64,000 bases of DNA, taken from the NCBI GenBank assembly GCA_036874045.1, contig CM072336.1, forward strand, positions 19,711,001 through 19,775,000, written 5' to 3'. Origin of the DNA: Cymodocea nodosa (taxonomy: Eukaryota > Streptophyta > Magnoliopsida > Alismatales > Cymodoceaceae). The first letter of the stretch is position 1. Every line of letters begins with the position of its first letter. Both the position numbers and the translations under genes were made by a program. Below, piece after piece: positions 36,151 through 62,717 of the stretch. The notes beneath the pieces were generated by a model. The model worked only from the letters and a program-made list of their open reading frames with translations, searched no databases and had not been told where the DNA came from.

Positions 36151-36153
36151 ATG

Positions 36154-38166: not shown

Positions 38167-38180
38167 GCTCTGATACCAAT
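38167..38180 (-). promoter_or_regulatory. Cop-A primer-binding site
   Basis: Minus strand ATTGGTATCAGAGC directly inside the 5' LTR. TGGTATCAGAGC matches the 3' end of plant initiator-Met tRNA. Confidence 0.95.
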
Positions 38181-39967
38181 TGTTAGGATCGATAGGCTCA
38201 CCAAAAGGGGGGTGAATGGTGAAAGTGTGTGGTTTTAAAATTCTTTTAATGTTGAATCGAATGATTCAACAAAAATGAAATGAGATGAAACTAATATAAT
38301 GCAAATCAACAGAGATAAGAAACACAGCAAATTTTTAAGTGGTTCACCAATTTGGCTAGTCCACCCCCAAGATTTACTTGGACTTCACTAAGTGTTTCAA
38401 CACTTACACACGTACTTTCAGGTCAAAGCAAGAACCAACTACACAGAAGTTTTCAGGTAAAAACTTCAGTAAACCAACCTCTAGAGTTTTCAAGTTGAAA
38501 CTCAAACCAACACTGTATGTAGCTTTCAGGTTGAAGCCACGAACCAACTTTAAACCTTCAATCAGAGTTTTGGCGCAACAGCTTTTTCTACAGTAGATCT
38601 TCTGAATATTCTTCACTGTTTGTAGACTTGAATGTAATTGGAATTTTTTTGTGTAGCTCACTGTGTATATCCTGTATATCCATTGTCTGTCTGTATTTTA
38701 AATATATACTTGATATGTACAACGATCATATTTTCCTCCAACGGGTGTATTCTACTGTACTTGATTAGGATCAAGTCTCAATACTGCAAGTGACCGTTTA
38801 GAAAAATCGTTTCAAGATATCTTATCGATTTTTCTGTTCTTTCGAATGGTTAGCTATGCAACTCTCCGAAGAATAACTGTAACTCACCAAAAGATCACTT
38901 AACATTTACTGCTAGGTAAGATTCCAGAATATTTAAATGTGAGATGTCATCCAATCGGATACTTATAACTGTAACTCACCGAACAGTTATATACTTGTCG
39001 GATAGTTTATCTCTGTTAACTTTCTGATTGTTTTAATTCAGCACGTGCATAAAGGCTGACTCAAGTTTCGGATGGTTATCCTTGTAACTCACTGAAACGC
39101 TTTAGGATTTCGGATAGTTATCTTTCTAACTCTCCGAAAACTTATTTGCACTTCTTTTTGGAATTCTGCACATGGGAAAATCAGTGACTTAAGTTTCAGA
39201 TGGTTAAACTGTAACTCACCAAAACTCTTTTAAAATTTTGAATAGTTATCTTTCTAACTCTCCGAAAACCCATTTGAGCATTTGTCTAGAATTCTGCACG
39301 TGGGAAATTCAATGACTTAAGTTTCGGATAGTTAAACTGTAATTCACCGAAACTCTCTTGAAATTTTGGATAATTATCTTTCTAACTCTCCGATTTTCCC
39401 TTTTAAGCTTTCAACTGCCAACTTCTCCATTTTGCACGTGCGTAATAAAATGACTTAAGTTCCGGAAAGTTATGCCTGTAACTTACCGAAACACTCGAAT
39501 AGTTATCTAACTCTCCGAAAAGAAAACTCGGATAGTTATCTAACTCTCTGACAAGTCCTTTAAGCTTCCCTTCTGTATTTCTGCACGTGGTTTATTGAAT
39601 GACTTAACTTTTAGATAGTTATACCTGTAACTCTCCGAAAAGTCCTTTAATCTTCCGGATAGTTAATGATCATTCAATCCCCTTAACTGTCTGATAAAAT
39701 AACTCTCCGAAGGCTTTACAATTTCGGATGGTTATTCTTCTAGTTGTCCGATAGTATTGCTGCTGTTTTAAACTTACTCTTCGGACCTGTAACTGTCTAA
39801 TTTTCTTGTAAGTTTAAGACAGTATTATCTGGAAACTTCTCCATCTGTTCATCTGCATGGAATCTATTCTATCTACCTTCTGATCTAATGCTGCACTAAC
39901 TTAACTGTGAAATACAATATGTTTCCTCACATAGGTTTTGCATTATCAAAATACTAGGGTCCTAACA
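38181..39967 (-). repeat. Cop-A 5' LTR
   Basis: TGTTAGGATC ... GGGTCCTAACA, collinear with the 3' LTR. The hairpin array lies at 38850-39790. One hairpin that is perfect in the 3' LTR (33048-33073) has lost its second arm here (about 39656-39666), a deletion of about 13-14 bases. Confidence 0.92.
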
Positions 39968-40960: not shown

Positions 40961-41465
40961 TGTTGAGGATGAGAGTAGATGCACTCTATCTCCTCCTTGT
41001 GGTCTTCTCCCTTTTTCTCCAACACCTTTGCTAGTAAAGGGACTGTGTTTGCCTTGCTCTCAAAGAACACACTCTCTCTCGACTAATGGTGCTTGGAAGA
41101 AGAAGGAAAGGGAAGTAGAAGAGAAACTCACAGGATTTTACATGGTTTGGCAACTACCTACATTTGTAGGAGCTTAAACTGATTTCTGCTATTTCGACGC
41201 ACTCTCTCTTGAGAATACAACCCTATTTATAGGATGATTTACAAACCTTAGTTATAACAATTACAAGTTTAAGGTCTTCCGCCAAACACAACAATTAGAT
41301 TTTGACATATACTTTGGAATCCTTCTCAACTACATGTGCTAAACCAACTAGCAGGTTGACCTCCTTAGTTCTAGCTAAACAGCCGATTTTTAGGTAAACA
41401 CTCTAGAACACTCTGACTGAGGTCTCGACTTTCCTCCTTACATTGACTTTTCATTCTCATTGACA
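40961..41465 (-). mobile_element. Cop-D 5' LTR
   Basis: TGTTGAGGATGAGAG starts here, preceded on the plus strand by 'agataccaat', a one-base variant of the complement of the primer site. The right edge (CATTGACA) is a guess from TG...CA and from the start of R-type repeat DNA. No second LTR of this element is in the window. Confidence 0.6.
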
Positions 41466-42568
41466 TGTGTAGAAAAAAATTCATTTACATGTGTTAAGGT
41501 CAAAAAAAGATGTAAAATGGAATCGTACAAACACCACTACATGCAACCTAAAATCAAATGGTATGCAACTATAACAGAAATGATTGGCTAGACATTTGTC
41601 AAATAAAACTAAAAATATAATACAAAAAAATGCAAGGAAACCAACAAGTGGCCATTCAGGACATGAATGAATACAAAAAAATGCAAGGAAACCAACAAGT
41701 GGCCATTCAGGACATGAATGAATTGCTGGAATTGATGATACCCAAGGATAGGAGAAAAGCAATTGCAGTACCACTAGGACAACATTAGACAACTAATGAA
41801 TTTCAAAATTGACATGTTGGTTAAAATTCATTTATGTATGCACAAAATGAGAGATCCTAATTTTCATTAGCAAATTTATAGAACAAAGATTCAAAAGTAC
41901 AAGATCTTCGTCAAAATTGTAAAAAGAAACTAAAAACTAAAAATAAAATAAAATTAAAATGTGTGTCCTTATTTAATATTGTGAATATGAACAGCAACTC
42001 AAATCAACATGGGTAGTGTCTTCACACACATAAACACAATATATATGCACAAAAATGCACACATAAACACACAATGTATGTGCAAACAAATAGATAAATA
42101 GAAAGACACCCAAAGTGTGCACACACATGGTGTTTGTGCAAACAAGCACACACACACATACATAGATAGGTTGTTTGTGTTTGTTAGATTTGTAAGGCTT
42201 ATTCATACATCCATCATCAATGATTATCAACAGCAACTCAAATCAACATGGGTAGCGACTTCACATGCATAAACACAATATATATGCACAAAAATGCACA
42301 CATAAACACACATGTACGTGCAAACAAATACATAAATAGAAAGACACCCAAAGCATGCACACACATGGTGTTTGTGCAAACAAGCACACACACACATACA
42401 TAGACTAACCCAATAGGTTGTTTGTGTTTGTTAGATTCCTAAGGCTTATTCATACATCCATCATCAGTGATTATCCACATTACAAATATTTGTCCAAATA
42501 GAGAATAAAAACTAAAAAAATACAAATAATAAAACATAAGGGTTGGATTAAAAAAAACATGCTTATGT
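41466..42568. repeat. R-family and CA-rich DNA with two tandem duplications
   Basis: 41621-41722 is two perfect-looking copies of a 51-base unit ('tacaaaaaaatgcaagg' ... 'gacatgaatgaa'). 41992-42475 is two copies of a ~239-base CA-rich unit starting 'cagcaactcaaatcaacatg', differing by a few bases. 41540-41760 belongs to family R (compare 23760-23930). No gene. Confidence 0.75.
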
Positions 42569-45500
42569 TGAACTATCCAATCAAGGGTTGGATTAAGAGA
42601 GGATACCCTAAACCCTTAAAAAGTAGCAATGCTACATGTAGTAAATGTGATAGAATCAAGACTATCGTATATGATTAAACATTTAATTCACAAAAGATGT
42701 CATCTAGCATGGCTTCAAAGATGGACAACGACAATTGGAATGTCCTTTTAAGGCAAAGAATTTACTTAGATGTTTTAACAACACTAGTAATAAATACATT
42801 ACAACACCAATCATTTCCATATCATTTTTGTTGCCCCATTCTATCATATCCTACATCTTTAGCAAGCCTTAAATTATATAACGACCTTTAAGAAATGAAT
42901 AATAGAAATTTATCCACCACTTAGTGAGTGGATGATCTAGATTATTGTGCAACAATTTAATCCCTATAATGTTTTCATAAATATTAAGCAAATTGAGAAG
43001 TTTTCCCTCATCTAACTTTTGAGAAATTTGAATAGGAAAGTTATGAGTTTGACCAAACCCAATGTTGACCTTTAAGAAATGATGAGCCAATTCAGTAAGA
43101 AATTCATCCTCTATCTCAATGAACAGATGATCAAGCTTATAATAGACATATGGAAGGAGAAAAGAAAAGGAAAGGTATATGAGGAAGATGAACTTACATC
43201 AAGATTTAAACTACAGACCCAAATGGTGCACTAGAATCAAACAATTTTAAGGCAAGAGTTTAACAAAAATGAAGGGGACCAACATATATATATCTAATTG
43301 AAAACAACACATCAAATCCCATGGTACTACAATAAAATAAAACAACAAAACAAAGAAGATAAAATTAGTTACTTGGCATGGCAACTCTTGGTTGAAGTCC
43401 ATAAAGATCACACTATATTCAAGTACATCAAAAATGGTTAGCTAGGATTTACTAAAATAAAACTACAAATATAATAAAATGAAAATCCAAGGAAACCAAC
43501 TATAATATATTCTAACTAAAGACCTAATATAATACAACACATTCAACTAAAGATAATCCTTTTCTTAAGTGTGCAAAGAAGTGCTTTTAAAATCTCAGGT
43601 CATTTAAAATGTAATTTAACAATATTTGCATGAAAAAATAAAGGATGAAAAGTATACTAATAAAATCACATGATAAAATCTCTAGTCATAAAGTGTAAGT
43701 TAACAATACTATTCATATCAAAAAATAAAAGATGAAAAGTAAATTAATAAAATCACATAATCAGAAGGTTACCAAGATAAAATGCATACAATAAAATGTC
43801 CAATTTTATGTCAAAGAAATTCTCTGATACTTAAATTTTGCTAGTCTTTTAGTAAATTTTAAATTCCAATAAAATCAAATAACATAAATGATGACCAGAC
43901 TAATAAAGACAGCAAAACATTTTTGGAAAGATTGCCCATAATCATTTAATTAGCTAGAGAGTTTCTAATGCACCCCAAGTTGTTCAATAAGTTCACCTCT
44001 AGTTGAGAAATCCCTTTCACCTTTAGACATGGAAATTAATTTTATTTTTCACATCATCTACTTGATGCTAAAGCTTACATACAATGCGCATGTGTAAATA
44101 ATCCTTGATTAAGGGTTTCAAGTTCACCTAAATACTTTTTATTTTATCTCTCTTAATTCTTAAGACAATCCCAAGAATATCTTCTTGAGTAAACATTGTC
44201 TCTTTTTTTCTTTCTTTTTCAACATTTGTCCTTCAACCACCTTTTTACACAGATACCAATTCTTGTCCAAGGAAGGGGCACCTAGTTACTCAGTGTGATA
44301 TTTAAACATCGATTTTCCTTTTTTCTCTCTTTTTTAACCTTTGTACTTCAACCACATTTTTACACAAATACACTTTCTTATCTAAGGAAAGGTCACCTAG
44401 TTATTCAATGATCTTTGAACTCTAGTGTTTTTTTTTCAAGACAACCCTAAGAGAGATACCTTAAGTAAGCATTGTCTCTCCTTTTTTTTCTTTTCAACAC
44501 AAATACATATATCTAGGCTCCCTCTATTCCTTTAAATCAAGGACACAATGTTAGTGCAATAAAATATGCAAGTCTAACAATAAGATAGATGTATGTTATT
44601 TTTCAAACTAAATTTCCAAACTAAACTTCAAAGGATTCTCTTCCATTAGTTCCACTTACAAATTCCAACTATTGGCTAATTAGTTACTTCTAGCTAACTA
44701 AATTCTTATGGGCAACTCCAAATATTTTACAACTCAAGAAAAAATAAACACAAAAGCAACAAGCGAAAGTCTCTCTCCCATGCCTAAACTTTACATTGTC
44801 TTTAATATAATAAAAATGAATTATAAAGCACCAATAAATGACTAGGTACAAAAAAAGAGTACCTTCTCCCACAAAACAAAAATCACACCTACCCAAATCA
44901 ATATCTAAATATTTACAAAGAAATATAACAACAAACCAAGTAAAATCTCTTCCATACCTAAACCATGCATTATCTCCAATATAACAAATGTGAAATGGTG
45001 CATAACAAAATGAGGTGAAGGCAAGAAGGGGTGTACTTAGTTTACTTTACCAATCAAAATAAAAACCAAAAAGAGTTGTGGCCCATAACAATTTCCTTTC
45101 TTCTTTTCTTCCACGTGAGCACCTAAATAAAGAATAGAACAAGGAGCAAATTTCTCTCTTCCATAATATTATACTTTATCCTTGATATAATAAAATTTGT
45201 AATCTTATCTAATTAAGATATGAAACAGAAAATAGTTTGTCTTGTTCAAAATATCAACATTAAGGTGCTATCACAATTAAAAGATGAGTCAATAAAAGTT
45301 ATATCATAAAGAGAGAATCATCATGTCACCACAACAAAGTAGACTAAGTTCATACTACATAACAATCATATAAAATCTCATCTTTTGAGATTATGATGCT
45401 GTAACAATTAAATTCAAAATTGCATACATACTAGGTGACCAATACATTAAACTCCTATGTGTAAGGGATCATGCAAGATAATTCAATAAGAAGAAATGGG

Positions 45501-45658
45501 TACTAGTATGTTATGTCAAACATAATTGCACAATATTCAAATGGTACTCATTAAATGCGATTGTACTTTAAAAGAAATATAACATACATCTGCAATTTAA
45601 TCATTATAATGTTTCCATAAAGATTAAATAAATTGAACACTTTGTCCTCATCTATCTT

Positions 45659-46162
45659 TTGACAAATGTGCAAAAGAAAATTGTGTATTGTAGCATGCAT
45701 AAGGTAGGAGAAAAGAAAAAGAAAGGACAGGTATGTGAGAATGAACCTACATCAGGATTTAAACTAGAAACGAAAATGGGGCACCTATCGTTAGTGCCAC
45801 TTATTCCAAGAGATAAAACTCCAAAAAAGGTTGTTGCAATTGCAGATGCACTTCCATCTAAAAAAGGAAAGGTGCAAACACCGATACATGTGCATGAAAG
45901 ACATCATTACACCACTAAAGAATTTCAAGATGAATCAAAGAAATTTAAAACAGGGTTTTCCAAGAAAGGAAAGGGACTAGCCTGTCGAGATCCAATTGGA
46001 AAAGGGAATGAAATGGCAACATCAGATCACAAAATGGCACGTTACAATGTGAGAAGAAAAAAAGAAAACAAGAAATCAATCACCAACCTCGGCACCAGTT
46101 GGTCGAACCCAAAAAGACCTACAGGATTACCATACAAAAAAAATCAAGTGCTCAGAGAGTAA
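45659..46162 (+). other. 167-codon basic open frame within the arm (also 55819-56322)
   Basis: Starts MTNVQKKIVYCSMHKVGEKK and is Lys/Arg-rich to the end, with no recognisable domain. The sequence overlaps an R-family block whose other copies (for example 47240-47530) do not keep the frame, so it is probably chance. It is the longest uninterrupted frame in the arm and is unchanged in the other arm. Unrecognised. Confidence 0.25.
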
Positions 46163-46593
46163 CTTGCACTAAGAGACAACAAGCACGACAACAAAAATAG
46201 AACACCTCTCCATGTAAATAGGACCATTCAAAGAAGTGGTGTAAACCTGTAAAATGGTCAAAATCTAAAACACTGGTTTCATCCGTATATTTTCATCGAT
46301 CTTTCATAACTGACTCTTGTCGTACATCATGTTAGAAACTACAAGTCCCTATGTACAAGGAGACGAAGGAAAAGGAAAACACTTATCTCCCTAGTTCGAT
46401 TAGCATATTCCAACTTGGTATTGACTTTCAAAAGTTACGGGAAGAAGTTCGTGGCGGTTCCACGACTGAACTCTCCATCTTCTTTCCTTTAATAAAATTT
46501 TGAATTCAACGTCTGTAGGATGGACTCTGGAGAATCTTAAAGTGGAGAATAATGAAGACGTGTGGAAGGCATTAGGAGTGCGAGGGAAGTAGA

Positions 46594-46909
46594 ATGGACC
46601 GAAGCCAATCGATCATCAATGTGGAAGAAACGAGGTGTGGAGGGAGGGGGGACGAAAACAAAGGTGACGAGGGAAAGATAGAGGAAGACATGGAGTACAT
46701 TGTTGTGAATGCCTTACCTACATCGCGATGCCTCGTCCGACGAGGGATGGGAGAAGATCGCGTAACGGCAGACCTTCGGATACCCGAGCTCTTCCTCCAA
46801 TCGATACACCCCCATCCCTAGCATTTCTCTGACAACCGAAGGGAACGACGCTGGCGAGGGAACAGTGATCGCTTTGTTTGGCGTTTCGAGGGAGTGGCGC
46901 AGATGTCAT
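46594..46909. other. GC-rich island with open frames on both strands (also 55072-55387)
   Basis: About 46400-46910 is clearly richer in G and C than anything nearby and contains CpG-rich words. One strand has a 75-codon frame (46594-46821, IEEDMEYIVVNALPTSRCLV), the other a 63-codon frame (46909-46718). On the latter strand a GTAAGG donor-like site follows the stop (in the right arm, at 55263). The composition suggests a captured first exon or promoter from a host gene, but I do not recognise a product. Confidence 0.35.
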
Positions 46910-47020
46910 TTATATCGACGATTTCTTGTTTGTTTTCTTTTTTTTTTTATAAATTAAAAGGAAAGAACGGCTCTCTTGCTTTTCTTTCGTACAACGGTCA
47001 ATTTTTTGTTGTCGTAGATT

Positions 47021-47631
47021 CATGTACTCGTGTTTTAAATCTTTTTATACATGTTAACTTAATTTTCCTTTTATATATATAATATATATAAAATACTAGT
47101 ACATATAAGTGAAATAGAGATTAAGTGGCTAATTAAATTTTTAGCATAACTTAAATATATATTTGTTGAAAGAGCTCGTATGGAAGCTTAATTAATATAT
47201 GGGACGTGATTTATTCAAGAGTTAGATGAAATTGGTGCTTCCAAAATTGCCTCTAGTGCAATACAATACCAATAAAACACAATACCATTTATCTGCTTAT
47301 TCAAGGAGGTAAACTTTGCAATTGTAATCCTTCATCTAAAAATAGAAAGATACAGACACCGACACATGCATATGTAAGATAGTATTAGACAACCAATGAA
47401 TTGTAAGATGAATCAAACAATTTTAAAACAAGAGTTTGCGAAAAATGAAGGGAACAAAGCTATACATATCTAACTAGAAAATGAATAAAAAAGGCAACAT
47501 CATAATACTACACTACAATGGCACATTAAAAAAAGAGTACATAAAATCAATCATCTGTCATGGCACCTATAGGTTGGCATCATAATGGCCTGCAAGATTG
47601 ACACACTTCAACTGAATTCAAGAAATGGCTA
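47021..47631. other. Spacer start: unassigned DNA and an R-family copy
   Basis: 47021-47230 is AT-rich without features. 47240-47631 is a diverged copy of the R block at 45750-46160 ('aattgtaatccttcatctaaaa', 'gatacagacaccgac', 'agacaaccaatgaattg'). The Harbinger element begins at its end. Confidence 0.55.
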
Positions 47632-47804
47632 ATTAAGGGGGGTTAGTGCACACAAAAATTCATGGAAAGGAAAAGAAAGTTTGAACTTTGCTTTTGTAAG
47701 TCGTTAGTGTGTATACCAATTAATGTAAAGGAATTCCACACATTTTTGTCCATATAAAAGCTTCATTTTCCATTTCTGCCGAAAGCTTTCCCACCCTCAC
47801 GCAC

Positions 47805-48053
47805 GTGATTTTCACCCTCATGCTCTCACTCACCCTCCCTCGTGCTCACACTCGCAAAAGGTTAGTTGAAGTACAAAGCAAGTTGGTTGATATTAAAAAA
47901 AAGACTGAAAACTATTTAGATCATGTTGTTGCAGCGTTACTTCAGATTGAAGGCTTTTCTAGTGAAGAACAATATAAAGCTATGGAGCTATTCCAAAAGC
48001 CAGAATTCTGTAAAATATTCTTAAGTTTACCAGCAAAAATGCATTATGAATAG
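47805..48053 (+). pseudogene. C-terminal piece of a Harbinger Myb/SANT-like protein
   Basis: Encodes KRLVEVQSKLVDIKKKTENY then LLQIEGFSSEEQYKAMELFQ and CKIFLSLPAKMHYE. Small C-terminal domains of this kind (LxxIEGxxxEExxKAxELFxxxxxRxxFLxLP) follow the Myb/SANT-like DNA-binding domain in plant Harbinger ORF1 proteins, which act with the transposase in binding the ends. The DNA-binding part that should precede it is missing: upstream is a short C-rich sequence with repeated 'caccctc' (47790-47840). Truncated. Confidence 0.6.
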
Positions 48054-48395
48054 TTGAGGTTTAGGAAGTGAGCATATGGTTACAATGGATGAAATGTTTG
48101 TTTTGTGCATGAATTCACTTTCTTTCCAATCTTGAACTTCTTACATTTATGAAGTGTTTTTGTGAATGCAATCTTTTATGGATGAAATCTTTTTGTGGAA
48201 GGTCATATATGGATGAAATGTAAAATGGATATTATATATTGAAATGTGAAATGACTTATCATTATGAAATGTAAAATGCTTTTTATTAGTTTAAACGTCG
48301 AATGTCTTTTATTTTCTTAGAAATGTGAAATGTCTTTTATATATTGAAATGTGAAATGATAAATTCGTAATATTCTTGTTATCTTGTAGGTGAGG

Positions 48396-49801
48396 ATGAA
48401 TCTTAGTGATATGTTTACTACTACAGTTGATAATGCAATTTCATTCCTACTGGATGAAGAAGAAGTGGCTAAAAGAAAGTGACTACGTCTATTTACGTCA
48501 TGGACAATTTTAGCAAAAATGGCAAGTACGTCACCATTACTATACAATAACACAAGTCATATATATAGTAAAGAATGTGCAGATTACATTAAGAGATTAC
48601 TAGATCCTTGTCAACCTCATCAAGCTTACAATTGTCGGAAGATTTACAGAATGAGTCAAAGTGTGTTTAAAAGTTTTTGTTCTTTAATGAGAAATGAAGG
48701 AGTTATTACTAATACCAACAACATTAGTGTAGAGAAGAAATTTGCCATATTCCTTGTCATAATAGGGCAAAATCAAAGGTATGAAGTAATAGTTAAGCGA
48801 TTTAGTTGTTCAAGTTGGAGTGTTAGTAAATACTTTAATGAAGTATTAAATGCTATAATACGTCTACATCATGTGCTTATAGCAAGACCTTCATCTTCAA
48901 CATCAGGTCGAATTGCAGATGATGTAAATGTTTATCCATATTTTAAGGTATATATTCACTTTTGTAATGTCCTTGTAGTTTTTATCTTATTTAAGGAATA
49001 AGATTAAATGATGTTTAATGTGTATAGGATTGCATTAGAGTTATTGATGATACTCATATCAAAGCAACTATTTTTGGACAATAAACAACTAAATTTAGAA
49101 ATAGGAAAGGTGAATTGTCTCAAAATGTGATGGTAGCATGTAATTTTGATATGAGATATACATATATTTTAGCTAATTGGGAAGGATCAACAACTGATGC
49201 TCGCATCCTTCAAGATACAATTAGTAGACCTAATGGTTTCAAAGTTCCTCCAAGTAAATGCAATTAGTATATTTTCAAGTAATACGTACATTATCATACT
49301 AATTTTTATTCTTATATAAGTAAGTTTTACTTGGTAAATGTTGGATATCCCAATCGACCAGAGTATATTTTCCCATTTCGAGGTGTACGCTATCATTTAT
49401 CTAATTATGTTAATGATAAACTTCTTAGTAATGTTGTAGAAAACTTTAACTACAAGCATTCACAACTAAGAACAGTCATTGAGCATACATTTGGAGTTGT
49501 GAAACATTGTTTTTCAATCTTACGAGTTCAGATGCCATATCCATATGAAACACAAGTGAAGATTGTGATCGCATGTTTTTTACTTCACAATTTCATTCGA
49601 TTGGCTGATAAATAAGATTTACTTGAAGATTTGCAAGATGAGTTAGAAGAATTAAATATTACTGATGATATACAACCAATAGGAAAAGTGCATATGGATG
49701 GACATTCACAAGTTGGAACGAGTTAAGAACAACGAAAAGAAGTAACTAATAAGATACGTGAGGATATGATGATGGCAATGTGGGATAGAAGGACTATTTA
49801 A
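48396..49801 (+). pseudogene. PIF/Harbinger transposase (DDE_Tnp_4 type)
   Basis: Start chosen at ATG 48396 (MNLSDMFTTTVDNAISFLLD), in frame with 48519. Helix-turn-helix region: YRMSQSVFKSFCSLMRNEG, EKKFAIFLVIIGQ, SSWSVSKYFNEVLNAII. An intron (about 48949-49027) separates VYPYFK from DCIRVIDDTHIKA (first Asp). Then NFDMRYTYILANWEGSTTDA (second Asp), a probable second intron at 49255-49320, FYLVNVGYPNRPEYIFPFRG and RTVIEHTFGVVKHCF (Glu), then IACFLLHNFIRL. The DDE triad is readable. Stops occur near 48480 (TGA), 49081 (TAA), 49612 (TAA) and 49726. It would cut and reinsert the element, but is inactive. Confidence 0.88.
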
Positions 49802-50139
49802 GTCCATTTATATTATACCTTTGGATTATTTATTATATTGATGTTGTAATAAGTAGAATGCTTTGTATCTTTGAACTATTGTGTAGATTCATGTTGTAAT
49901 ACTTTGAATGCTTTGTACTTTTAGACTACTTTTTAAATTTATGTTGTAATAATTTGAACATGTATACTTTTTCAAGTCATTAATATTATTTTCATTTTTA
50001 AAAGTAAAATTACAAATTGATGTATTAATTACAAAATTTTAAGTAGTGTTTTATAATATATTTTGGTTGAAATCATAAATCTATTAGTTCAAACCATAGA
50101 TTATAAATTATTATTATTTTAATCTTTAAACACAATTTA
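49802..50139. other. Transposon 3' flank, no gene
   Basis: AT-rich sequence following the transposase stop, with three 'atgttgtaataa' type repeats (49840-49955). Nothing coding. Confidence 0.5.
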
Positions 50140-50153
50140 GTTTAAAATACATA

Positions 50154-50202
<49 letters not shown>

Positions 50203-50930
50203 GTAATCGATTCAACCAATTCAAAAAATATATATACATATATATATAAAGTATCGGTTGAACCAATTCAAAAAATACATAAAGATATATATATATATAT
50301 ATATATAATCGGTTGAACCAATACATGATCAGTTCAACCAATTCAAAAAATACATAAAGATATATATAATCTGTTGAACCGAAACATTATCGATTCAACC
50401 AATTCAAAAAAATATATATGTAATCGGTTGAACCAAAATATGATCGGTTCAACCAATTCAAAAAATACATAAAGACATATATAATCGATTGAACCGAAAC
50501 ATTATCAGTTCAACCAATTCAAAAAAAACATATACATATACATATATATATATAAATATGATCGGTTCATATAATAAAAATATACATATACATATATATT
50601 TATATATATATATAATCGGTTGAATCGAAACATGATCGGTTCAACCAATTCAAAAAATATATATACATATATATATATTTATATATATATAAAATATCGA
50701 TTTAACCGAAACATGATCGGTTCAACCAATTCAAAAATATCATAAAAAAATACAAATATATTGAGCCCTCTACTCAAACGATTAATATATATATAACATA
50801 AATTATCAGTTGAACTGAAAGATCATCGATTCAAACGTTTCCAATATTAATAAATATTAATAATTTATAATCTATCGGTTGAATCAATATATTTACGATT
50901 CAACCGTTCCCCAATAAATAAATATGTAAA
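50140..50930. repeat. Minisatellite of GGTTGAACC hairpins and (TA)n
   Basis: At least six repeats of a 60-100 base unit: 'atcggttgaacc', about ten bases, 'atcggttcaaccaattc', then A-run and TA-run. 50426-50434 and 50446-50454 form a perfect nine-base stem GGTTGAACC with an 11-base loop. It opens with (CATA)n and (TA)n at 50152-50200. Confidence 0.85.
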
Positions 50931-51626
50931 TAATAATAATATATTAGTAAATATTTTTTTCTTCTACTCAACAAAGACATTCTTGGTTTTGCCAAGTTAA
51001 GTAAATATAGATACATATATATTAAAATAATAATGGTAAACAATGGATTAATAATGATATAACATCTTTATATTATTTTTAAAAAAATTATAAATACACA
51101 TAAAATAATTATAATTATATAAAAAATTTAAGAAAAAGAGAGAATAATATTAGACATATATATTCAAGAATTAATAATAATATTATTATTAATATTAAAT
51201 TTACAAAGAAAAAATTAAGATGTAGATTTTTAATGGTAAAAGTATGCTTATCTTTTAGGGACCTTTTGCATTTTGATTATTATTATTCTATATTTCTTAA
51301 TGTACAATTCAAAAACATTTAATGTATATAATTATATTTGAACATCAAATAAATTAATATTATTTTTAGGTGTAAATATAAAATTACAAATTAATGTATC
51401 AATTATACAATTTTAAGTAGTGTTTTAGAATTTATTTCATTACTTTTTCAATTTTTGAACATTCTAGCGTGCACTAAAATCCTATAGGAATTCTAACTTT
51501 CTAAACTTTCCAATAGGTACACTAAACCTTTATGGAAATTCTAACATTTTAGATATTACATTTCATTTTCTTTTAAACTTTTCATTTCATTTCCTTCTGA
51601 ATTTTCTAGTATGCACTGACATTTCC
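50931..51626. other. AT-rich end of the Harbinger element
   Basis: No gene. The sequence is very AT-rich until 51420. From 51455 to 51615 short words 'gtgcactaaaat', 'ggtacactaaacc' and 'tatgcactgac' recur and resemble the left end near 47641, as expected of subterminal repeats. Confidence 0.5.
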
Positions 51627-52089
51627 TTAGACATTTGTGAAATAAAACTAAAAAAATAATACAATCAAACTTCAGGGAAACCATACCTTTTCTTCAGTAG
51701 GCAAACAAGGGTTTCTTGAAATCTCTAGGCATTTAAAATGTACGTAAGTTAACGATAATATCCAATGAAAAATAAAGGATGAAAATAACACTAATTATAG
51801 TCACGTGATCAGAAACTTACGTAGGTTGATCATTATCGTAGCTAACTTGTAATTTAGATAGATTAGATCATAAAAGGAAAACGAATAGCCAATCAAGAGA
51901 TGAATAAATCTTATAATTACATTTCAAAAGAAGGAAGCAATCATGAAATCACATTTGGAGAATTATATATTGAGCACACTACAATGACCATATATATTGC
52001 AGCCTTGAAAGGATGTACAGCACATAAAAAGAACATTGTTTGAGTACATGAGAATTATGAATTGATTTTAATTCCGATACGATCTAGCG
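51627..52089. repeat. R-family copy right of the Harbinger element
   Basis: Resumes R sequence: 'agacatttgtgaaataaaac' (compare 41588), then 'ttcttcagtaggcaaacaag' and 'tctctaggcatttaaaatg' (compare 43560-43615). No gene. Confidence 0.6.
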
Positions 52090-52785
52090 TATTACATATT
52101 AATATATATATTACATAATTAGTGAATTTTAGTTTTTAAAATTAATATTAATCAATTCATTAATTTTTGCATTATAAATATTTAAAATCATTGCATTAAT
52201 TTTAAAAAGTATTCATAATTTTTTTAATAATAATCATATATGTAGAAATCAAATCAGTTATTTTAATTAATAGTCATAAATAAATTTAGATTTATATTAA
52301 TAACATTAATATATATTATTGTTATTAATATATATTCACATATATTAATATATTAAATACATATATATATATGTATATTATATATTAATGTTATTTACGT
52401 TCGGTCGTACCGAACATAATTTCGGTACAACCGAACGTGTTATATATATTAATATAATTACAATAATTAGTAAATATTAATTTTTAAAGTTAATATTAAT
52501 CAATTCATGAATGTTCAAATTATAAATATTTAAAATCATTGTATGAATTTTAAATAGCAATCATAAATTTTTTAATAATAATCATATATGTAAAAATAAA
52601 ATCAATTATTTCAATTAATAGTCATAAATAAATTTATATTTATATTAATAAAATTAATATATATATACTTTTTATTATTATATTAACAATAATATATATT
52701 AATATATACATACAAATGTACTACTACTAATTGCTTATTGTATATATTAATAAAAAATCAAATCAATTATTTTAATTAATAATCA
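52090..52785. repeat. 348-base tandem duplication in AT-rich DNA
   Basis: Two diverged copies (about 52090-52437 and 52438-52785), for example 'atcaattcat' at 52151 and 52499 and 'ataataatcatatatgta' near 52224 and 52575. They flank the hairpin at 52397-52438. Confidence 0.7.
52397..52438. repeat. 18-base-stem hairpin ACGTTCGG...
   Basis: ACGTTCGGTCGTACCGAA and its complement with one mismatch around a 6-base loop CATAAT. It stands alone in DNA with almost no other G or C, so it would fold strongly. Confidence 0.8.
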
Positions 52786-54960
52786 TAAATGCTTATTGTA
52801 CATTGAATCGGATCATGGACAACAAAACTTAAATGATAGATTGACCATCAAGAAATGAAAAGTCAACTAAACCTAAAATCCATCCTCCTAAAATAAAGAA
52901 GGATCTAGCTTGTTGTGTAGTAACATAATCCTTTAAATTAGAGACCAAAATTCCAAAGCTGTTAGTAGTGCCACAAATTTCAGGAGGTAAAACTCCACCA
53001 AAGCCTACGTAGCTTCCCACCTAAAAATGGAGTGGTACCAAAGCTTAAATACAAGTGTATGTAAAACAACGTTAGGTTTGAAAATTATTATTATTATTAT
53101 TTGATTAACTGATATATCTCTTGGTTTCATCGGAGTATTACATTTATGTTGATTAATAATATCATTATTATATATATGTATTTATATTTATTTAAATCGA
53201 TCAAATTGCAAGTATCTCGATTGAGTCAATAAAATATTTTATGATTATATTATTTTTTTTAGAAAACGACTGAACTGCAAACATTTTGGTTCAACCTATA
53301 AATTTATAATTTTTCTTAAAAGATCAGTCAAGCACATGGTATTTCGGTTCAACTATTTCATTTTATTTTCATTATAATTATATCTATATGATTTTAAAAG
53401 ATTAATTTAATCGAGTCTTTTCTTGATTTAACCTATAAACAAAACCATATATATTTTATATTTAAAAGAAACAAAATCGATTGAATTGATCATATTTTGG
53501 TTCAAATTGATAATTATATATATATATATAACATTCATTCAGTTAAATCAAACTTTTCACGTAGCTTTCATTTCAATTATTATTTTTTCATTCTTCACGT
53601 TCATTTCTTTTTTTTTAATAATCATAGCGTACGTTGTTTCTTTTCCAATTATCAGACCAGCTTCGTGTGCTTTATCTAACCTAAGTTGCCTTTTTTTTAA
53701 TTATATATATATTATTTTAAAAATACGATATTAATCAGTTTGATCGAACATACTCGATTAAGCCGATATTTATTATTATTATTTTATAACTTCTACCTAG
53801 AATGTCAGGTGCCGCCGTTTCACTCGACAGGTGCGAACTATTAACATTATTATATTATTATTATTGTTGTTGTTGTTATTGTTTTATTTTATTTTTTTGA
53901 CTTTTTTTAATAGACATTTTTAATTGGTTTGATCGTAACAACCATATTATAGAAGAACATAAAAGGAAATGTATACGAGGAGGACGATCTCACATCAAGA
54001 TTTAAATTAGAGGCAATAATTCAAATGAAATAATAAACGTCATTTGTAAATTCTTGTTGAAATGGCTTTATCTATGCTTTATTGCAAAATAAATATTTTA
54101 ATTATTATTGTCATTTAATTACCTACTTCATTATTTGAGTTAAAATACAAACTATATATATATATATATATATGAGTGTGCACGCGCATGCTCGGGTTGA
54201 AACATTATTCACTGTATTATTTAAGAATTTTTTACAGAAAAAATTTAGTCAATATATATAAAAAAAGTTTTAGAACATAGATTTTATTTGTGACACCTAA
54301 AAAGTTAATAATTGAAAAATTAAAAATTTTTACTACTTTTTTAAGATTTGTAACACATAAAAAAGTTTTTTAACTTTTTAATATATAAAAGATCAGAGAT
54401 TTTAAAATTTCAGATTTCTTTCATTTAAAAGTTAAGAAAGTAATATAAGAATTACCTATATTTAATTAATTATTTAAAATTAATTATAATTAAAGTATAT
54501 ATTGTTAATATAATTAAAGTATATATTGTTAATATTTTTTTAATTAATTTAATATTTTTATTAATAATAAAATATTAATTATTTTATTATTAATATATAA
54601 TATTAAAATTTCAAAAATTATATAAATTTTTAAATTTCCGTCGATGTCACATTATTTTCAAATTTTACTTTACAACTGATTCCGATTTTTTTTAATTTTC
54701 TAATTCTTAACTTTTTATTTATTTCGTTGTCAACATGCATTTAACTAAATAGATAGAATTATAACAAATACAAAAATATTGCAAAGTTTATACTAATTAT
54801 TTTAAAATAAAATATTAACAATTGTAAATCTTGAAAAATCTTTTTTAATCATGTGATATGAGACACATTTACGATTAACTTTAAGGTCGCTAATAAAATT
54901 AATCGTCAAGCTAAAATATAAAAGTAAACATAAAATATTAAGAATAGAAAACTTTCTTGT
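52786..54960. other. AT-rich spacer with R fragments and scattered GGTTCAA motifs
   Basis: R-family fragments lie at 52880-53060 ('caggaggtaaaactccacc') and 53940-54010 ('aggaggacgatctcacatc'). Between 53200 and 53960 there are several 'ttttggttcaac', 'aatcgattgaattgatc' words. The rest to 54960 is AT-rich with (TA)n at about 54152. No gene. Confidence 0.5.
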
Positions 54961-57900
54961 AATCTACGACAACAAAAAATTGACCGTTGTACGAAATAAA
55001 GCAAGAGAGCCGTTCTTTCCTTTTAATTTATAAAAAAAAAAAAGAAAACAGACAAGAAATCGTCGATATAAATGACATCTGCGCCACTCCCTCGAAACGC
55101 CAAACAAAGCGATCACTGTTCCCTCGCCAGCGTCGTTCCCTTCGGTTGTCAGAGAAATGCTAGGGATGGGGGTGTATCGATTGGAGGAAGAGCTCGGGTA
55201 TCCGAAGGTCTGCCGTTACGCGATCTTCTCCCATCCCTCGTCGGACGAGGCATCGCGATGTAGGTAAGGCATTCACAACAATGTACTCCATGTCTTCCTC
55301 TATCTTTCCCTCGTCACCTTTGTTTTCGTCCCCCCTCCCTCCACACCTCGTTTCTTCCACATTGATGATCGATTGGCTTCGGTCCATTCTACTTCCCTCG
55401 CACTCCTAATGCCTTCCACACGTCTTCATTATTCTCCACTTTAAGATTCTCCAGAGTCCATCCTACAGACGTTGAATTCAAAATTTTATTAAAGGAAAGA
55501 AGATGGAGAGTTCAGTCGTGGAACCGCCACGAACTTCTTCCCGTAACTTTTGAAAGTCAATACCAAGTTGGAATATGCTAATCGAACTAGGGAGATAAGT
55601 GTTTTCCTTTTCCTTCGTCTCCTTGTACATAGGGACTTGTAGTTTCTAACATGATGTACGACAAGAGTCAGTTATGAAAGATCGATGAAAATATACGGAT
55701 GAAACCAGTGTTTTAGATTTTGACCATTTTACAGGTTTACACCACTTCTTTGAATGGTCCTATTTACATGGAGAGGTGTTCTATTTTTGTTGTCGTGCTT
55801 GTTGTCTCTTAGTGCAAGTTACTCTCTGAGCACTTGATTTTTTTTGTATGGTAATCCTGTAGGTCTTTTTGGGTTCGACCAACTGGTGCCGAGGTTGGTG
55901 ATTGATTTCTTGTTTTCTTTTTTTCTTCTCACATTGTAACGTGCCATTTTGTGATCTGATGTTGCCATTTCATTCCCTTTTCCAATTGGATCTCGACAGG
56001 CTAGTCCCTTTCCTTTCTTGGAAAACCCTGTTTTAAATTTCTTTGATTCATCTTGAAATTCTTTAGTGGTGTAATGATGTCTTTCATGCACATGTATCGG
56101 TGTTTGCACCTTTCCTTTTTTAGATGGAAGTGCATCTGCAATTGCAACAACCTTTTTTGGAGTTTTATCTCTTGGAATAAGTGGCACTAACGATAGGTGC
56201 CCCATTTTCGTTTCTAGTTTAAATCCTGATGTAGGTTCATTCTCACATACCTGTCCTTTCTTTTTCTTTTCTCCTACCTTATGCATGCTACAATACACAA
56301 TTTTCTTTTGCACATTTGTCAAAAGATAGATGAGGACAAAGTGTTCAATTTATTTAATCTTTATGGAAACATTATAATGATTAAATTGCAGATGTATGTT
56401 ATATTTCTTTTAAAGTACAATCGCATTTAATGAGTACCATTTGAATATTGTGCAATTATGTTTGACATAACATACTAGTACCCATTTCTTCTTATTGAAT
56501 TATCTTGCATGATCCCTTACACATAGGAGTTTAATGTATTGGTCACCTAGTATGTATGCAATTTTGAATTTAATTGTTACAGCATCATAATCTCAAAAGA
56601 TGAGATTTTATATGATTGTTATGTAGTATGAACTTAGTCTACTTTGTTGTGGTGACATGATGATTCTCTCTTTATGATATAACTTTTATTGACTCATCTT
56701 TTAATTGTGATAGCACCTTAATGTTGATATTTTGAACAAGACAAACTATTTTCTGTTTCATATCTTAATTAGATAAGATTACAAATTTTATTATATCAAG
56801 GATAAAGTATAATATTATGGAAGAGAGAAATTTGCTCCTTGTTCTATTCTTTATTTAGGTGCTCACGTGGAAGAAAAGAAGAAAGGAAATTGTTATGGGC
56901 CACAACTCTTTTTGGTTTTTATTTTGATTGGTAAAGTAAACTAAGTACACCCCTTCTTGCCTTCACCTCATTTTGTTATGCACCATTTCACATTTGTTAT
57001 ATTGGAGATAATGCATGGTTTAGGTATGGAAGAGATTTTACTTGGTTTGTTGTTATATTTCTTTGTAAATATTTAGATATTGATTTGGGTAGGTGTGATT
57101 TTTGTTTTGTGGGAGAAGGTACTCTTTTTTTGTACCTAGTCATTTATTGGTGCTTTATAATTCATTTTTATTATATTAAAGACAATGTAAAGTTTAGGCA
57201 TGGGAGAGAGACTTTCGCTTGTTGCTTTTGTGTTTATTTTTTCTTGAGTTGTAAAATATTTGGAGTTGCCCATAAGAATTTAGTTAGCTAGAAGTAACTA
57301 ATTAGCCAATAGTTGGAATTTGTAAGTGGAACTAATGGAAGAGAATCCTTTGAAGTTTAGTTTGGAAATTTAGTTTGAAAAATAACATACATCTATCTTA
57401 TTGTTAGACTTGCATATTTTATTGCACTAACATTGTGTCCTTGATTTAAAGGAATAGAGGGAGCCTAGATATATGTATTTGTGTTGAAAAGAAAAAAAAG
57501 GAGAGACAATGCTTACTTAAGGTATCTCTCCTAGGGTTGTCTTGAAAAAAAAACACTAGAGTTCAAAGATCATTGAATAACTAGGTGACCTTTCCTTAGA
57601 TAAGAAAGTGTATTTGTGTAAAAATGTGGTTGAAGTACAAAGGTTAAAAAAGAGAGAAAAAAGGAAAATCGATGTTTAAATATCACACTGAGTAACTAGG
57701 TGCCCCTTCCTTGGACAAGAATTGGTATCTGTGTAAAAAGGTGGTTGAAGGACAAATGTTGAAAAAGAAAGAAAAAAAGAGACAATGTTTACTCAAGAAG
57801 ATATTCTTGGGATTGTCTTAAGAATTAAGAGAGATAAAATAAAAAGTATTTAGGTGAACTTGAAACCCTTAATCAAGGATTATTTACACATGCGCATTGT

Positions 57901-59412
57901 ATGTAAGCTTTAGCATCAAGTAGATGATGTGAAAAATAAAATTAATTTCCATGTCTAAAGGTGAAAGGGATTTCTCAACTAGAGGTGAACTTATTGAACA
58001 ACTTGGGGTGCATTAGAAACTCTCTAGCTAATTAAATGATTATGGGCAATCTTTCCAAAAATGTTTTGCTGTCTTTATTAGTCTGGTCATCATTTATGTT
58101 ATTTGATTTTATTGGAATTTAAAATTTACTAAAAGACTAGCAAAATTTAAGTATCAGAGAATTTGTTTGACATAAAATTGGACATTTTATTGTATGCATT
58201 TTATCTTGGTAACCTTCTGATTATGTGATTTTATTAATTTACTTTTCATCTTTTATTTTTTGATATGAATAGTATTGTTAACTTACACTTTATGACTAGA
58301 GATTTTATCATGTGATTTTATTAGTATACTTTTCATCCTTTATTTTTTCATGCAAATATTGTTAAATTACATTTTAAATGACCTGAGATTTTAAAAGCAC
58401 TTCTTTGCACACTTAAGAAAAGGATTATCTTTAGTTGAATGTGTTGTATTATATTAGGTCTTTAGTTAGAATATATTATAGTTGGTTTCCTTGGATTTTC
58501 ATTTTATTATATTTGTAGTTTTATTTTAGTAAATCCTAGCTAACCATTTTTGATGTACTTGAATATAGTGTGATCTTTATGGACTTCAACCAAGAGTTGC
58601 CATGCCAAGTAACTAATTTTATCTTCTTTGTTTTGTTGTTTTATTTTATTGTAGTACCATGGGATTTGATGTGTTGTTTTCAATTAGATATATATATGTT
58701 GGTCCCCTTCATTTTTGTTAAACTCTTGCTTTAAAATTGTTTGATTCTAGTGCACCATTTGGGTCTGTAGTTTAAATCTTGATGTAAGTTCATCTTCCTC
58801 ATATACCTTTCCTTTTCTTTTCTCCTTCCATATGTCTATTATAAGCTTGATCCTCTGTTCATTGAGATAGAGGATGAATTTCTTACTGAGTTGGCTCATC
58901 ATTTCTTAAAGGTCAACATTGGGTTTGGTCAAACTCATAACTTTCCTATTCAAATTTCTCAAAAGTTAGATGAGGGAAAACTTCTCAATTTACTTAATAT
59001 TTATGAAAACATTATAGGGATTAAATTGTTGCACAATAATCTAGATCATCCACTCACTAAGTGGTGGATAAATTTCTATTATTCATTTCTTAAAGGTCGT
59101 TATATAATTTAAGGCTTGCTAAAGATGTAGGATATGATAGAATGGGGCAACAAAAATGATATGGAAATGATTGGTGTTGTAATGTATTTATTACTAGTGT
59201 TGTTAAAACATCTAAGTAAATTCTTTGCCTTAAAAGGGCATTCCAATTGTCGTTGTCCATCTTTGAAGCCATGCTAGATGACATCTTTTGTGAATTAAAT
59301 GTTTAATCATATACGATAGTCTTGATTCTATCACATTTACTACATGTAGCATTACTACTTTTTAAGGGTTTAGGGTATCCTCTCTTAATCCAACCCTTGA
59401 TTGGATAGTTCA
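54961..59412 (-). repeat. Right arm of the 4.45-kb near-perfect inverted repeat
   Basis: Reverse complement of 42569-47020 (see that entry). In this orientation three PPT-like blocks are visible: 'aagtataatattatggaag' at 56813, 'atggtttaggtatggaagag' at 57014, 'aaagtttaggcatgggagag' at 57189. Each follows a '(g)ga(c/t)aa' word and resembles the 'acaatgtttagtttggggg' end signal of Athila/Tat elements. Also 57590-57770 holds two diverged copies of a 120-base unit around 'taactaggtg'. The arm ends exactly where copia Cop-C is cut. Confidence 0.97.
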
Positions 59413-59880
59413 CAGTTGATCACTCATAACTGCAGCAACATCTCCTACAACTGGAGAACCTTGCAGAATGTATAGGGGCCCATTTTTTACTCCTTTCATC
59501 ACTACCAATGAGCCTTTTGAGACCAACAGTTTGCCTCCTCCTCCTGAATACTTGAAACCCTTGGAATCAAGTGCCATCAAGGATATCAAGCTTTTACCTA
59601 GTTTGGGCACATGCCATACATCTTCAAGGATTCTTACTGTGCCATCATGCATCTTGAATCTAATTGTACCAATGTCAGCTCTTAGATAAACATCATCATT
59701 TGCTAATCTAACTTGTCCTCCATCAACAGTCTGATAAGTATAAAAATACTCCCTATTGGGAGTCATATGATGAGATGCTTCAGAGTTTAAGATCCAATGC
59801 TGATCTGTATATGCACTACAACAAACAGTCAAAGAAAAATCACCTTCAGACGTTGAATCTTCTTTTTCAGCTACTGACGC
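59413..59880 (-). pseudogene. Cop-C: copia protease, cut at the inverted-repeat border
   Basis: Encodes WILNSEASHHMTPNREYFYT, where the catalytic copia motif D-S-G-A-S has become N-S-E-A-S. It continues through QVRLANDDVYLRADIGTIRF, VWHVPKLGKSLISLMALDSK and GPLYILQGSP to VAAVMSDQL, then stops at the junction with the right arm. The normal continuation into the gag-pre-integrase histidines is absent. The loss of the catalytic Asp shows that this element was dead or dying independent of the break. Confidence 0.9.
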
Positions 59881-60765
59881 TCCCTTTGGATTTCAATTTG
59901 GGATAATTTACTTTCCAATGTTCCTTTTCTTTGCAATAGTTGCAAGTATCATTGGAGTACTTGCCTCTTGATTTACTCTTTCCTCTATACTTGTTATTGT
60001 TGCTTTGTTTCTGTTGACGTCTCCTACTATTTCCTTGATGTACAGTCAAATCAGATGTACTTGCATCATTACTCCCATGTGTAATCATGTGCTTAAGTTC
60101 TCTTGAGTGAAGACTGGACTTCACTTCCTCTAATGTGATTGTGTCTCTGCCAACTACAAAGGATTGCACAAAATTTTCAAATGACAGTAGAAGTGAAATA
60201 AGTAAAATGAGAGTAGCATCCTCATCTTCAACAATCACACCAATATTGCGTAGCTCCATAAGAATAGTGTTTAACTTATCCAAATGTTGCTTCAACGGTG
60301 TATCTTCCTTCATTTTTAAAGAGAACAACCTCTGCTTGAGCAATAAAGTTCTCTTGAGTGAAGACTGGACTTCACTTCCTCTAATGTGATTGTGTCTCTG
60401 CCAACTACAAAGGATTGCACAAAATTTTCAAATGACAGTAGAAGTGAAATAAGTAAAATGAGAGTAGCATCCTCATCTTCAACAATCACACCAATATTGC
60501 GTAGCTCCATAAGAATAGTGTTTAACTTATCCAAATGTTGCTTCAACGGTGTATCTTCCTTCATTTTTAAAGAGAACAACCTCTGCTTGAGCAATAATTT
60601 ATTAGTAAGGGATTTTGTCATGTACAGTGTTTCCAACTTGTTCCACAACCCAGAAGCTGTGGTCTCATCAACAACTTCAATAATAACTTCATCTGATAGG
60701 CATAGTAAAATAGTGGAGTGAGTCTTCTCTTCTTGTTGTTCATACTCTGTAGATTTTTTATCCAT
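59867..60765 (-). pseudogene. Cop-C gag with an exact 251-base internal duplication
   Basis: Minus strand from ATG 60765 (MDKKSTEYEQQEEKTHSTIL). Copia gag core: LLCLSDEVIIEVVDETTASG, LWNKLETLYMTKSLTNKLLL, then LKQHLDKLNTILMEL. The segment KQRLFSLKMKEDTPL to SSLHSREL appears twice because of the duplication, and since 251 is not divisible by three the frame is lost. The C-terminus has a zinc knuckle CNYCKEKEHWKVNYP (last Cys changed to Tyr). Tnt1-like lineage. The upstream end of gag is probably missing its first ~80 residues or lies in broken frames before 60765. Confidence 0.88.
60097..60597. repeat. Exact 251-base tandem duplication
   Basis: Copies at 60097-60347 and 60348-60597 ('gttctcttgagtgaagactg' ... 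'ctctgcttgagcaataa'). I saw no difference between them, so the event is recent compared with the decay of the gene it lies in. Confidence 0.92.
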
Positions 60766-60959
60766 AGTCGACTCCTTGTTTAAAGGTGTTCAAATGCCCT
60801 ATTGCTTCAACAAAGCCCTCATTTTTATTTGCCAAAGGCTGAAATTGTTTTTGCCATTAAACTTATCCACTTTCAAAGTCAGTGTTGACATCACAAAATG
60901 TGTAAATTCTATGCAAAATCACTGTTTACCTTCAAACAGACCGAAGATGCCAACCTTGT

Positions 60960-61550
60960 GTACTGACGAGTCTCTCTTATGGACTGACTTGTATGCACAG
61001 GCTGTTGTGCGTTGGAGGAGTGGACAGACCACGTTGAGCAAATGCTGGCAGACGTGCAAGAGAGTATCACGTGGACGACTATTGTAGGCAGATGCACAAG
61101 AGAGTGTCGTGCGGACAACTGTTGCAAGCAAACGTGTGAGAGAGAGCAGACGTGCAGACGACAGTCGAGCGGACGGTAGTCACACAGATGGCATGCGAGC
61201 AAGCGATAGTCGTGCGTATGGTAGGCAGTAGTCTCCCGGGCAGCAGGTGAGCAAGCGACAATCGTGCGGGCGGCAGGCGGAGGCAAACAGCAATCGTGCG
61301 AAAGGCAGGCGGTAGTTGCGCGAGCGCAGACTTTCGAACAAATGTAGAGTTGCGTGGACGGACGTAGAGACAGACACACGTGCGCAGATAGATGTGCGGA
61401 CGTACGCGCGTAGCCAGATGCACGGACGTACGTGCGCAGGCAAACACACAGACGTACACGAGCAGACAATCTCGTGCGGGTAGATGTTGTGAAGGTGCGC
61501 ACAAGGACGAAGCGCACTGGCAACACGTGCAGACAGATGTTGATCTTTCG
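60960..61550. repeat. GC-rich degenerate minisatellite in the Cop-C leader
   Basis: Between primer site and gag, about 600 bases of imperfect repeats of words such as 'gcgagcaagcgac', 'gtgcggacgtac', 'cagacgtgc', 'aatcgtgcgg'. The GC content is far above the rest of the window. Three minus-strand frames stay open for 141-205 codons because the repeat contains few T-start stops. These are not credible proteins. Confidence 0.75.
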
Positions 61551-61604
61551 GCTGATTTTCTCCTAAAAAAATAATCTTTCTTTTCTCTTCCAAAGAAACC
61601 CTAG

Positions 61605-61617
61605 CTCTGATACCAAT
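61605..61617 (-). promoter_or_regulatory. Cop-C primer-binding site
   Basis: Minus strand ATTGGTATCAGAG, continuing GCT, directly inside the LTR at 61618. It matches the 3' end of initiator-Met tRNA. Confidence 0.93.
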
Positions 61618-61907
61618 TGTTGTGCGAGAGAAAAGAGAGAAGCGATAAAAACCAAACACACAAAGTCAAAATTTACGTGGTTCCCTAAATTGGATATGTC
61701 CACGGATGGAGAGAGATTTGGTTTTCTATTCAAATGGAGTACAAAAGAATCAACAGCCTTATGGGTGCCTTAGGTCCATGCTTAAATAGCATGGACAATA
61801 CAATTGGTCAAATGACCAAAATACCCTTACACTAATTCAAGTCATTCAACAAGAATAATGGAATGTATTTGTTGAGAAAATAGACTTTGTAATAAGGTCC
61901 TACAACA
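61618..61907 (-). mobile_element. Cop-C 5' LTR
   Basis: TGTTGTGCGAGAG at 61618 to GGTCCTACAACA at 61907, 290 bases. Inner edge is fixed by the primer site, outer edge by the TGTTGT...ACAACA ends. The 3' LTR and all of pol after protease are missing to the left. Confidence 0.85.
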
Positions 61908-62717
61908 ATAGACAAATGAAGAGAAGAAAAACAACAATTAAATGTTAAGTTAAAGACATGAATATCTTATTCTATGTTCTTTCTTTTGATTAATTCAACA
62001 AAGTATCTATCTATAATATAGTATAGGCATGCATTAGATATTTCCAATGAAGGAACAAATTAAGTTAAGGAAATCTATATAAACATTGTAGTACATTAGT
62101 ATGAACTATTTAAAATACATGAAAATGAGACTATATTTAAAATGTTTTCTAGATTTCTAGTTATAGCTAATTCTTTATAAGCATTAGATAGAGAATGTTC
62201 AGAAGATGAGCTAGTTAGAAAGATCCTCGGTTCCCTCACAATTGATTGAAGGTAGAAGACAACCACTATAGAGGAAGTGAAAGATGTCAATAAGTACTCA
62301 TTAGACGAGTTGATTGAAAATCCTTGGAGGAGTGTGAAGTCAAAGGTTTATGTTTTAGCTTTTCCAACTCAATCAGAGTTTTCATAGTTTTGAGAAAAAT
62401 AATACTATTTTTATGTTTGGTAGAAGACAACCACTATAGAGGAAGTGAAAGATGTCAATAAGTACTCATTAGATGAGTTGATTGAAAATCCTTGGAGGAG
62501 TGTGAAGTCAAAGGTTTATGTTTTAGCTTTTCCAACTCAATCAGAGTTTTGATAGTTTTGAGAACAATAATACTATTTTTATGTTTTAAATTATTAGAGT
62601 TTTTCTTAAGATTTTAAAGTGTTACAAAATTTATTTCACTTGGGTTGTAAGTGGAGGATAAAACTAACAAAAAATATTTTTTGTTATTTCTTGATTTTTA
62701 AACAATGAAGATATTTT
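61908..62717 (+). pseudogene. Small copia gag fragment with a 168-base duplication
   Basis: Around 62190-62350 the plus strand reads SEDELVRKILGSLTI, then TTTIEEVKDVNKYSLDELIEN, the copia gag segment normally reading xVRKILRSLP...T.IEEAKDLxKLSLDELIGxL. The second half (unit 62251-62418) is repeated at 62419-62586 with few differences. The rest of the stretch is AT-rich without features. Which element it came from is unclear. Confidence 0.6.

Follow-up and report, generated by a model that had tools for sequence, protein, structure and literature searches.

A palindrome at 42569-59412 is real in the assembly of Cymodocea nodosa, and it lies within the window, the 64,000-nucleotide stretch of contig C2 (C2:19711001-19775000) that was analysed here. 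Its two arms are probably the cores of two units of an old repeat family, R, which already stood head to head before their 4.45-kb core was recently homogenised by copying from arm to arm. The evidence comes from the layout of R units across the searched genome (374.6 Mb in 28 contigs) and from P, a one-armed relative of the palindrome on the same contig.

Arms, spacer and outer flanks

The left arm (B′, 42569-47020, plus strand) and the right arm (B, 54961-59412, minus strand) are inverted copies that self-BLAST aligns at 99.73% identity over 4,453 columns. They are the largest repeat listed for the window, and chance is ruled out for a match of such length. The palindrome and its size are as the sequence-only reading described them. 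Its two one-base indels also stand, while its roughly four substitutions, seen in the stretches compared, become 10 in an alignment of the full arms. The constant sum of arm coordinates that it reported, 101981, holds at both ends of the arms but falls to 101980 between the indels (46937/55043 to 46980/55001). The longest perfect match spans 2,479 bp of the left arm, from 44451 to 46929.

Three open reading frames from the arms matched no Pfam family at E 0.1, and neither Rfam (gathering threshold) nor ARAGORN (bacterial settings) returned a hit in the window. One open frame of 176 aa is present in both arms (45632-46162 and 55819-56349) and has no Pfam match; its counterpart in P is a frame of 186 aa (L002:510-1067, minus strand).

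The spacer (47021-54960, 7,940 bp) has the 7.9-kb size first reported, with the correction that a PIF/Harbinger-type element of 4 kb (47633-51630, plus strand) lies inside it. This element carries a DDE_Tnp_4 match (E 2.8e-13, in frame at 49283-49615), and its part from 47856 on has 32 other copies among the best 33 candidates. The sequence of 47633-47855 is located 2.2-2.4 kb further upstream in other Harbinger copies, so about that much is missing at an internal deletion, 47855/47856. A reading of 47021-47855 as a single foreign piece was rejected, since 47633-47855 belongs to the Harbinger element. Between the left arm and this element is A_left (47021-47632, plus strand), the usual R-family continuation behind the arm, here without a 66-bp R-family segment termed x. 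On the far side of the element, 52069-52790 (plus strand) forms the distal part of the left R unit and is also found in P. The right half of the palindrome is a second R unit that faces the left one and consists of 52800-54894, x (54895-54960, minus strand) and the arm; x is thus retained beside the right arm, as it is in P.

The two outer flanks differ in kind. On the left, R-family sequence continues out to 41437, where another repeat takes over with matches ending at about 41433. The stretch 41437-42568 (C′, plus strand) is the outer continuation of the left R unit and adjoins the arm in P, to which it is equal at 1,043 of 1,085 aligned bases. On the right, the outer border is a break inside the internal region of a Copia retrotransposon (59413-61852, minus strand), where a 2-bp filler is followed by the arm. 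Gag and Pol_BBD remain (Retrotran_gag_2, E 7.3e-33; Pol_BBD, E 3.9e-25), whereas the pol-ward part and the other LTR are gone at this truncated inner end. Three other Copia copies run on past the break point, and their matches to the window start at 59415 or later. A search for the missing piece, with a copy on C20 as its source, did not find it within C2:19701001-19795000, an interval that pieces of the C20 copy match only at the LTR, 61615-61852. Within the gag of the broken Copia, 60095-60597 consists of two identical tandem copies of 251 bp (100% over 252 bp), a duplication evidently younger than the element that contains it. A second tandem duplication, of 168 bp and 98% identical, occupies 62251-62586.

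R units elsewhere and a one-armed relative

R is a repeat family with many related copies. The sequence-only reading had noted other copies at 23750-27440 of the window; across the genome its members are found mostly near contig ends. By eye, and among the matches listed, most arm matches are no more than about 60 kb away from the end of a contig, with near-end examples on C5, C6, C10, C13, C16, C18, C20, C21, C22 and C24. The start of C12 has matches like A_left and like 52069-52790, and interior R copies are also listed, for example on C2, C12, C17 and C19. Read in the direction of the left arm, the R core points toward the contig end on 8 of 11 contigs (C5, C6, C10, C16, C18, C20, C21 and C22), away from it on two (C12 and C13) and both ways on C24, again among the matches listed. 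Several R units stand in a row near a contig end at C24:4128094-4183717, some of them about 8.8 kb apart, and one unit, at 4181-4184 kb, has the opposite orientation. At C21:556005-652772, eleven weak matches (68%) to arm positions 2306-2973 are listed, ten of them on the same strand and spaced exactly 9,946 bp.

R units elsewhere have a recurrent internal order. In units on C21, C24 and C5 (L005, L018 and L020), x, of about 66 bp, comes after the arm and before A_left, and in these units it corresponds to 54960-54895 read backwards. Three further units, two on C5 and one on C13, have the border between arm and A_left with differing deletions. Sequence like 52069-52790 lies downstream of the arm-like part on the same strand in eight (C5, C10, C13, C16, C18, C20, C21 and C22) of the nine contigs that list both close together, the exception being C24. 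With the same order found in R units of other contigs, the left half of the palindrome (arm, A_left, Harbinger element and 52069-52790) is arranged like an ordinary R unit minus x. The left inner junction itself was rejected as ancestral, for R units elsewhere carry the 66-bp x at that place, and without x the inner border of the left arm could be a fresh join.

P (C2:21.211-21.225 Mb) is 1.45 Mb from the window and has a single arm. Beyond the two arms themselves, an arm search lists only one place at 95-98% identity, C2:21216664-21220974, which is in P. The remaining arm matches listed, from the best 40 of 106 candidates, reach at most 94%, and any match better than 90% spans fewer than 60 bp. 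P is colinear with the window from 48992 to 59412, interrupted only by small gaps at 51509/51689, 52790/52800 and 56842/57019. Beyond the equivalent of 59412 it continues with 42568-41448 reversed and later with 24180-22674. Read base by base, P shows no break at either the left outer or the right inner junction of the palindrome, and it also shares the join between the two facing R units. Two joins are present in the window and absent in P, namely the left inner (47020/47021) and the right outer (59412/59413). Within 60 kb around P, the only partner of the right flank is a distant Copia (71-74%) that matches 59480-60879, and comparison of 61900-64000 with the surroundings of P yields repeat-family matches only.

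The window stretches 22674-24180 and 41448 onward, which adjoin in P, are separated here by a Copia-type LTR element (31575-39967) with 1.8-kb LTRs that are 93.1% alike and with RVT_2 and rve on the minus strand. A long repeat at 8867-18205 of the window also occurs at P (C2:21199790-21211133, about 86%), where one end of it lies exactly at the break in P's Harbinger element (window 48992), which suggests an insertion there. Between window and P the Harbinger element differs by about 11% in BLAST alignments, more than its surroundings, and a 1-kb stretch of it differs at 57 of 997 bases, of which 49 are transitions. The Harbinger copies of window and P occupy the same place, yet a small tree of seven copies does not group them as sisters. 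A methylated element that changes faster, or sequence copied in from other copies, could account for this excess divergence.

Divergence of the arms and competing origins

The arms are far closer to each other than either is to P. Substitutions between the arms amount to 0.22%, whereas the left arm differs from P at 97 of 4,274 sites and the right arm at 100 of 4,274 (2.3%). Sequence beside the arm is more divergent between window and P (108/3,270 in A_right and 42/1,085 in C, or 3.3-3.9%), and arm divergence from P is below that of either flank (p = 0.007 and 0.005). With P as reference, four of the arm-specific substitutions fall on the left arm and six on the right. Against these 10 stand 93 sites at which both arms are alike and P is different. 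Nine R-family loci serve as outgroups for these sites and assign 33 as derived in both arms and 30 as derived in P; among the 30 left unassigned, 19 have mixed outgroups (nine nearer the window, eight nearer P and two ties), two have another base and nine have no outgroup. Measured against five R loci, the left arm and P show the same distance of 11-12%, and neither has therefore changed faster than the other. Changes of the lineage that are common to both arms are as expected if the arms were copied onto each other.

The differences between the arms are patchy. The 10 substitutions are confined to two zones, the outermost 1.9 kb and the innermost 0.1 kb of the arm. The 2.5-kb gap that separates these zones (44450-46930) is free of substitutions between the arms, yet 54 of the 93 sites at which both arms differ from P fall inside it. 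A gap this large has p = 0.003 if sites are uniform and p = 0.011 if they are drawn from the sites that differ between window and P, both values resting on 10 sites. A Fisher test gives p = 0.0003 on zones picked post hoc and is not relied on. This clustering, on the same 10 sites, suggests that copying took place more than once and corrected the ends of the arms least. At site 44450 all seven outgroups agree with the left arm and P agrees with the right arm, as if an older difference between the arms had survived, although at a single site a back mutation is possible. GC-biased conversion was not detected (AT-to-GC versus GC-to-AT changes, 11:19 in the window and 7:21 in P; p = 0.40), in a comparison with little power. 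At an assumed substitution rate of 7e-9 per site and year, the time when the arms were alike would date to about 0.16 million years ago and the split from P to about 1.6-1.7 million years ago.

The preferred account of these data is arm-to-arm copying in an older inverted pair. P, with its one arm and a divergence of 2-4%, shares the inner right and the outer left junction, and the left half of the palindrome has the order of R units elsewhere; taken together, both units probably faced each other before window and P split. The ancestor of the two would accordingly have had two arms, and if it had both units, the separation of the arms is no younger than that of window and P. C′ differs from P's C by only 3.9%, compared with about 11% among R units in the arm, so the two units differed little by the time window and P split, and the pair may have been new at that time or formed shortly before. 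The shared core would then have been made alike by gene conversion, or by template switching or break-induced copying between the arms, and the patchy substitutions suggest that this process acted more than once. The continuation of the right arm would have been lost in a deletion that ended in the Copia element, with the 2-bp filler at the join. Against this account stand the one-armed state of P, whose other half would have to have been lost from a postulated two-armed ancestor, the divergence of the Harbinger element above that of its surroundings, and the lack of a GC-raising excess. The sequence-only reading had left the choice between a young duplication and gene conversion; that pair of options is supported, and the junctions and shared changes favour gene conversion.

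The main rival, less likely than arm-to-arm copying and on balance improbable, is a young staggered-break inversion. In the staggered-break model, inverted duplicates arise at inversion breakpoints. Here, a P-like ancestor (C′ B′ x A_right′ ... A_left′, followed by Copia) would have had its middle inverted, with the 4.45 kb between the cuts filled in at both ends, so that the arms would be young and alike without conversion. A single event of this kind would cover the exact arm ends, the confinement of C to the left and of Copia to the right, and the low divergence of the arms, and P has the uninverted order beside C. It requires the join at 47020/47021 to land within about 70 bp of the normal A_left site, and it is opposed by 52069-52790, which is likewise in the normal order of the left unit, and by the patchy arm differences. 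An assembly artefact, whether a wrong join, a wrong spacer orientation or a consensus that blends two arms, is considerably less probable again. Many contigs have round-number sizes, as in scaffolded assemblies, and C2 starts with N, which may have another cause. Against an artefact, the window itself contains no N, and the arms can be told apart at 12 positions, each having changes of its own. P repeats the inner right and outer left junctions, and R units at other places show the left inner order, with x included. A missed adapter would not be expected to yield a 7.9-kb spacer with different outer flanks. Homogenising consensus errors may nevertheless contribute to the identity of the arms.

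Readings of the palindrome as a fold-back element, or as a transposon whose terminal inverted repeats are very long, have almost no probability left and were rejected. The inverted-repeat shape and the DDE transposase fragment in the spacer would suit them. The outer arm ends have no direct repeat longer than 5 bp within about 40 bp on either side (longest shared word 5 bp) and hence no target-site duplication above that length, and P crosses the left outer border, so the arm end is not an element end; this bears out the earlier observation that the arms lack transposon ends. In addition, the Harbinger element has its own ends within the spacer, and apart from P no other place with a whole arm at high identity is among the matches listed for the best 40 of 106 candidates. 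There is also a slim chance that the head-to-head pair is a scar left where two chromosome ends were joined long ago, with the arms since kept alike by conversion and no gene to select for it. The basis of that faint prospect is that R lies mostly near contig ends and that the sides usually facing those ends face each other here. TTTAGGG plant-type telomere repeats exist in the genome, with places listed near both ends of C1. No telomere-like repeat was found in the spacer when the window was scanned with a 14-mer at up to two mismatches. The same scan gave three matches in the window, at 9940 and at the outer end of each arm, where 0.39 were expected and 1 of 100 shuffles reached three. Finally, the locus could be a source of long double-stranded RNA whose small RNAs silence the R family, a doubtful proposal that fits any origin. 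Natural plant inverted repeats that yield small RNAs exist. Pairing of the arms could give a stem of about 4,450 bp that includes 2,479 bp of perfect match, and many related R copies are present, whereas the 7.9-kb spacer and the one-sided Copia break make a single transcript through both arms uncertain.

Implications and known systems

Judged from sequence, the palindrome is most likely a further case of arm-to-arm homogenised inverted repeats, which are a known phenomenon. If this is true, homogenisation acts on a small plant palindrome of old repeat sequence without a recognised gene, which would suggest the inverted arrangement as its cause rather than selection for gene rescue. Should the palindrome be a chromosome-end scar, its homogenisation would be a by-product of shape alone. 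The nearby one-armed P provides a built-in clock and an outgroup with which conversion rate and tract pattern could become measurable across accessions. Near-identity of inverted repeats would then be a poor gauge of their age. Among the open-licence titles listed in literature searches, none was about a small gene-free plant palindrome with gene conversion outside sex chromosomes, which is weak evidence of novelty.

Palindromes of the mammalian X and Y are far larger and bear genes. Their arm identity of more than 99% is kept by gene conversion, and a GC bias is reported (PMC8981503). The present arms are likewise more than 99% identical and, unlike those palindromes, have no detected GC bias. 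In yeast, template switching between inverted repeats is reported to homogenise their arms and can invert the spacer (PMC8604942); the repeats there are short, whereas the arms here are of kilobase length. Inversions with inverted duplications at their breakpoints are described for Drosophila (PMC3355041, PMC5080602). Inverted duplicates around an inverted segment have the shape of the main rival explanation; the Drosophila cases are chromosomal inversions, while the segment here would be about 8 kb, with its left end in normal repeat order. For the silencing proposal, there is a parallel with inverted-repeat transgenes in plants, which yield small RNAs (PMC4238362).

The closest plant system is the W chromosome of Salix purpurea, whose palindromes have arms of about 20 kb with expressed genes and lie in the sex-determining region (PMC7023750). 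Gene conversion was there deduced from differences to a relative that are fixed while none exist among the arms (PMC7023750). The present arms differ from those in being 4.45 kb long and without recognised genes, and in being compared with a paralog in the same genome. They resemble them in belonging to a plant palindrome with arms more than 99% identical to which the same kind of test applies (PMC7023750).
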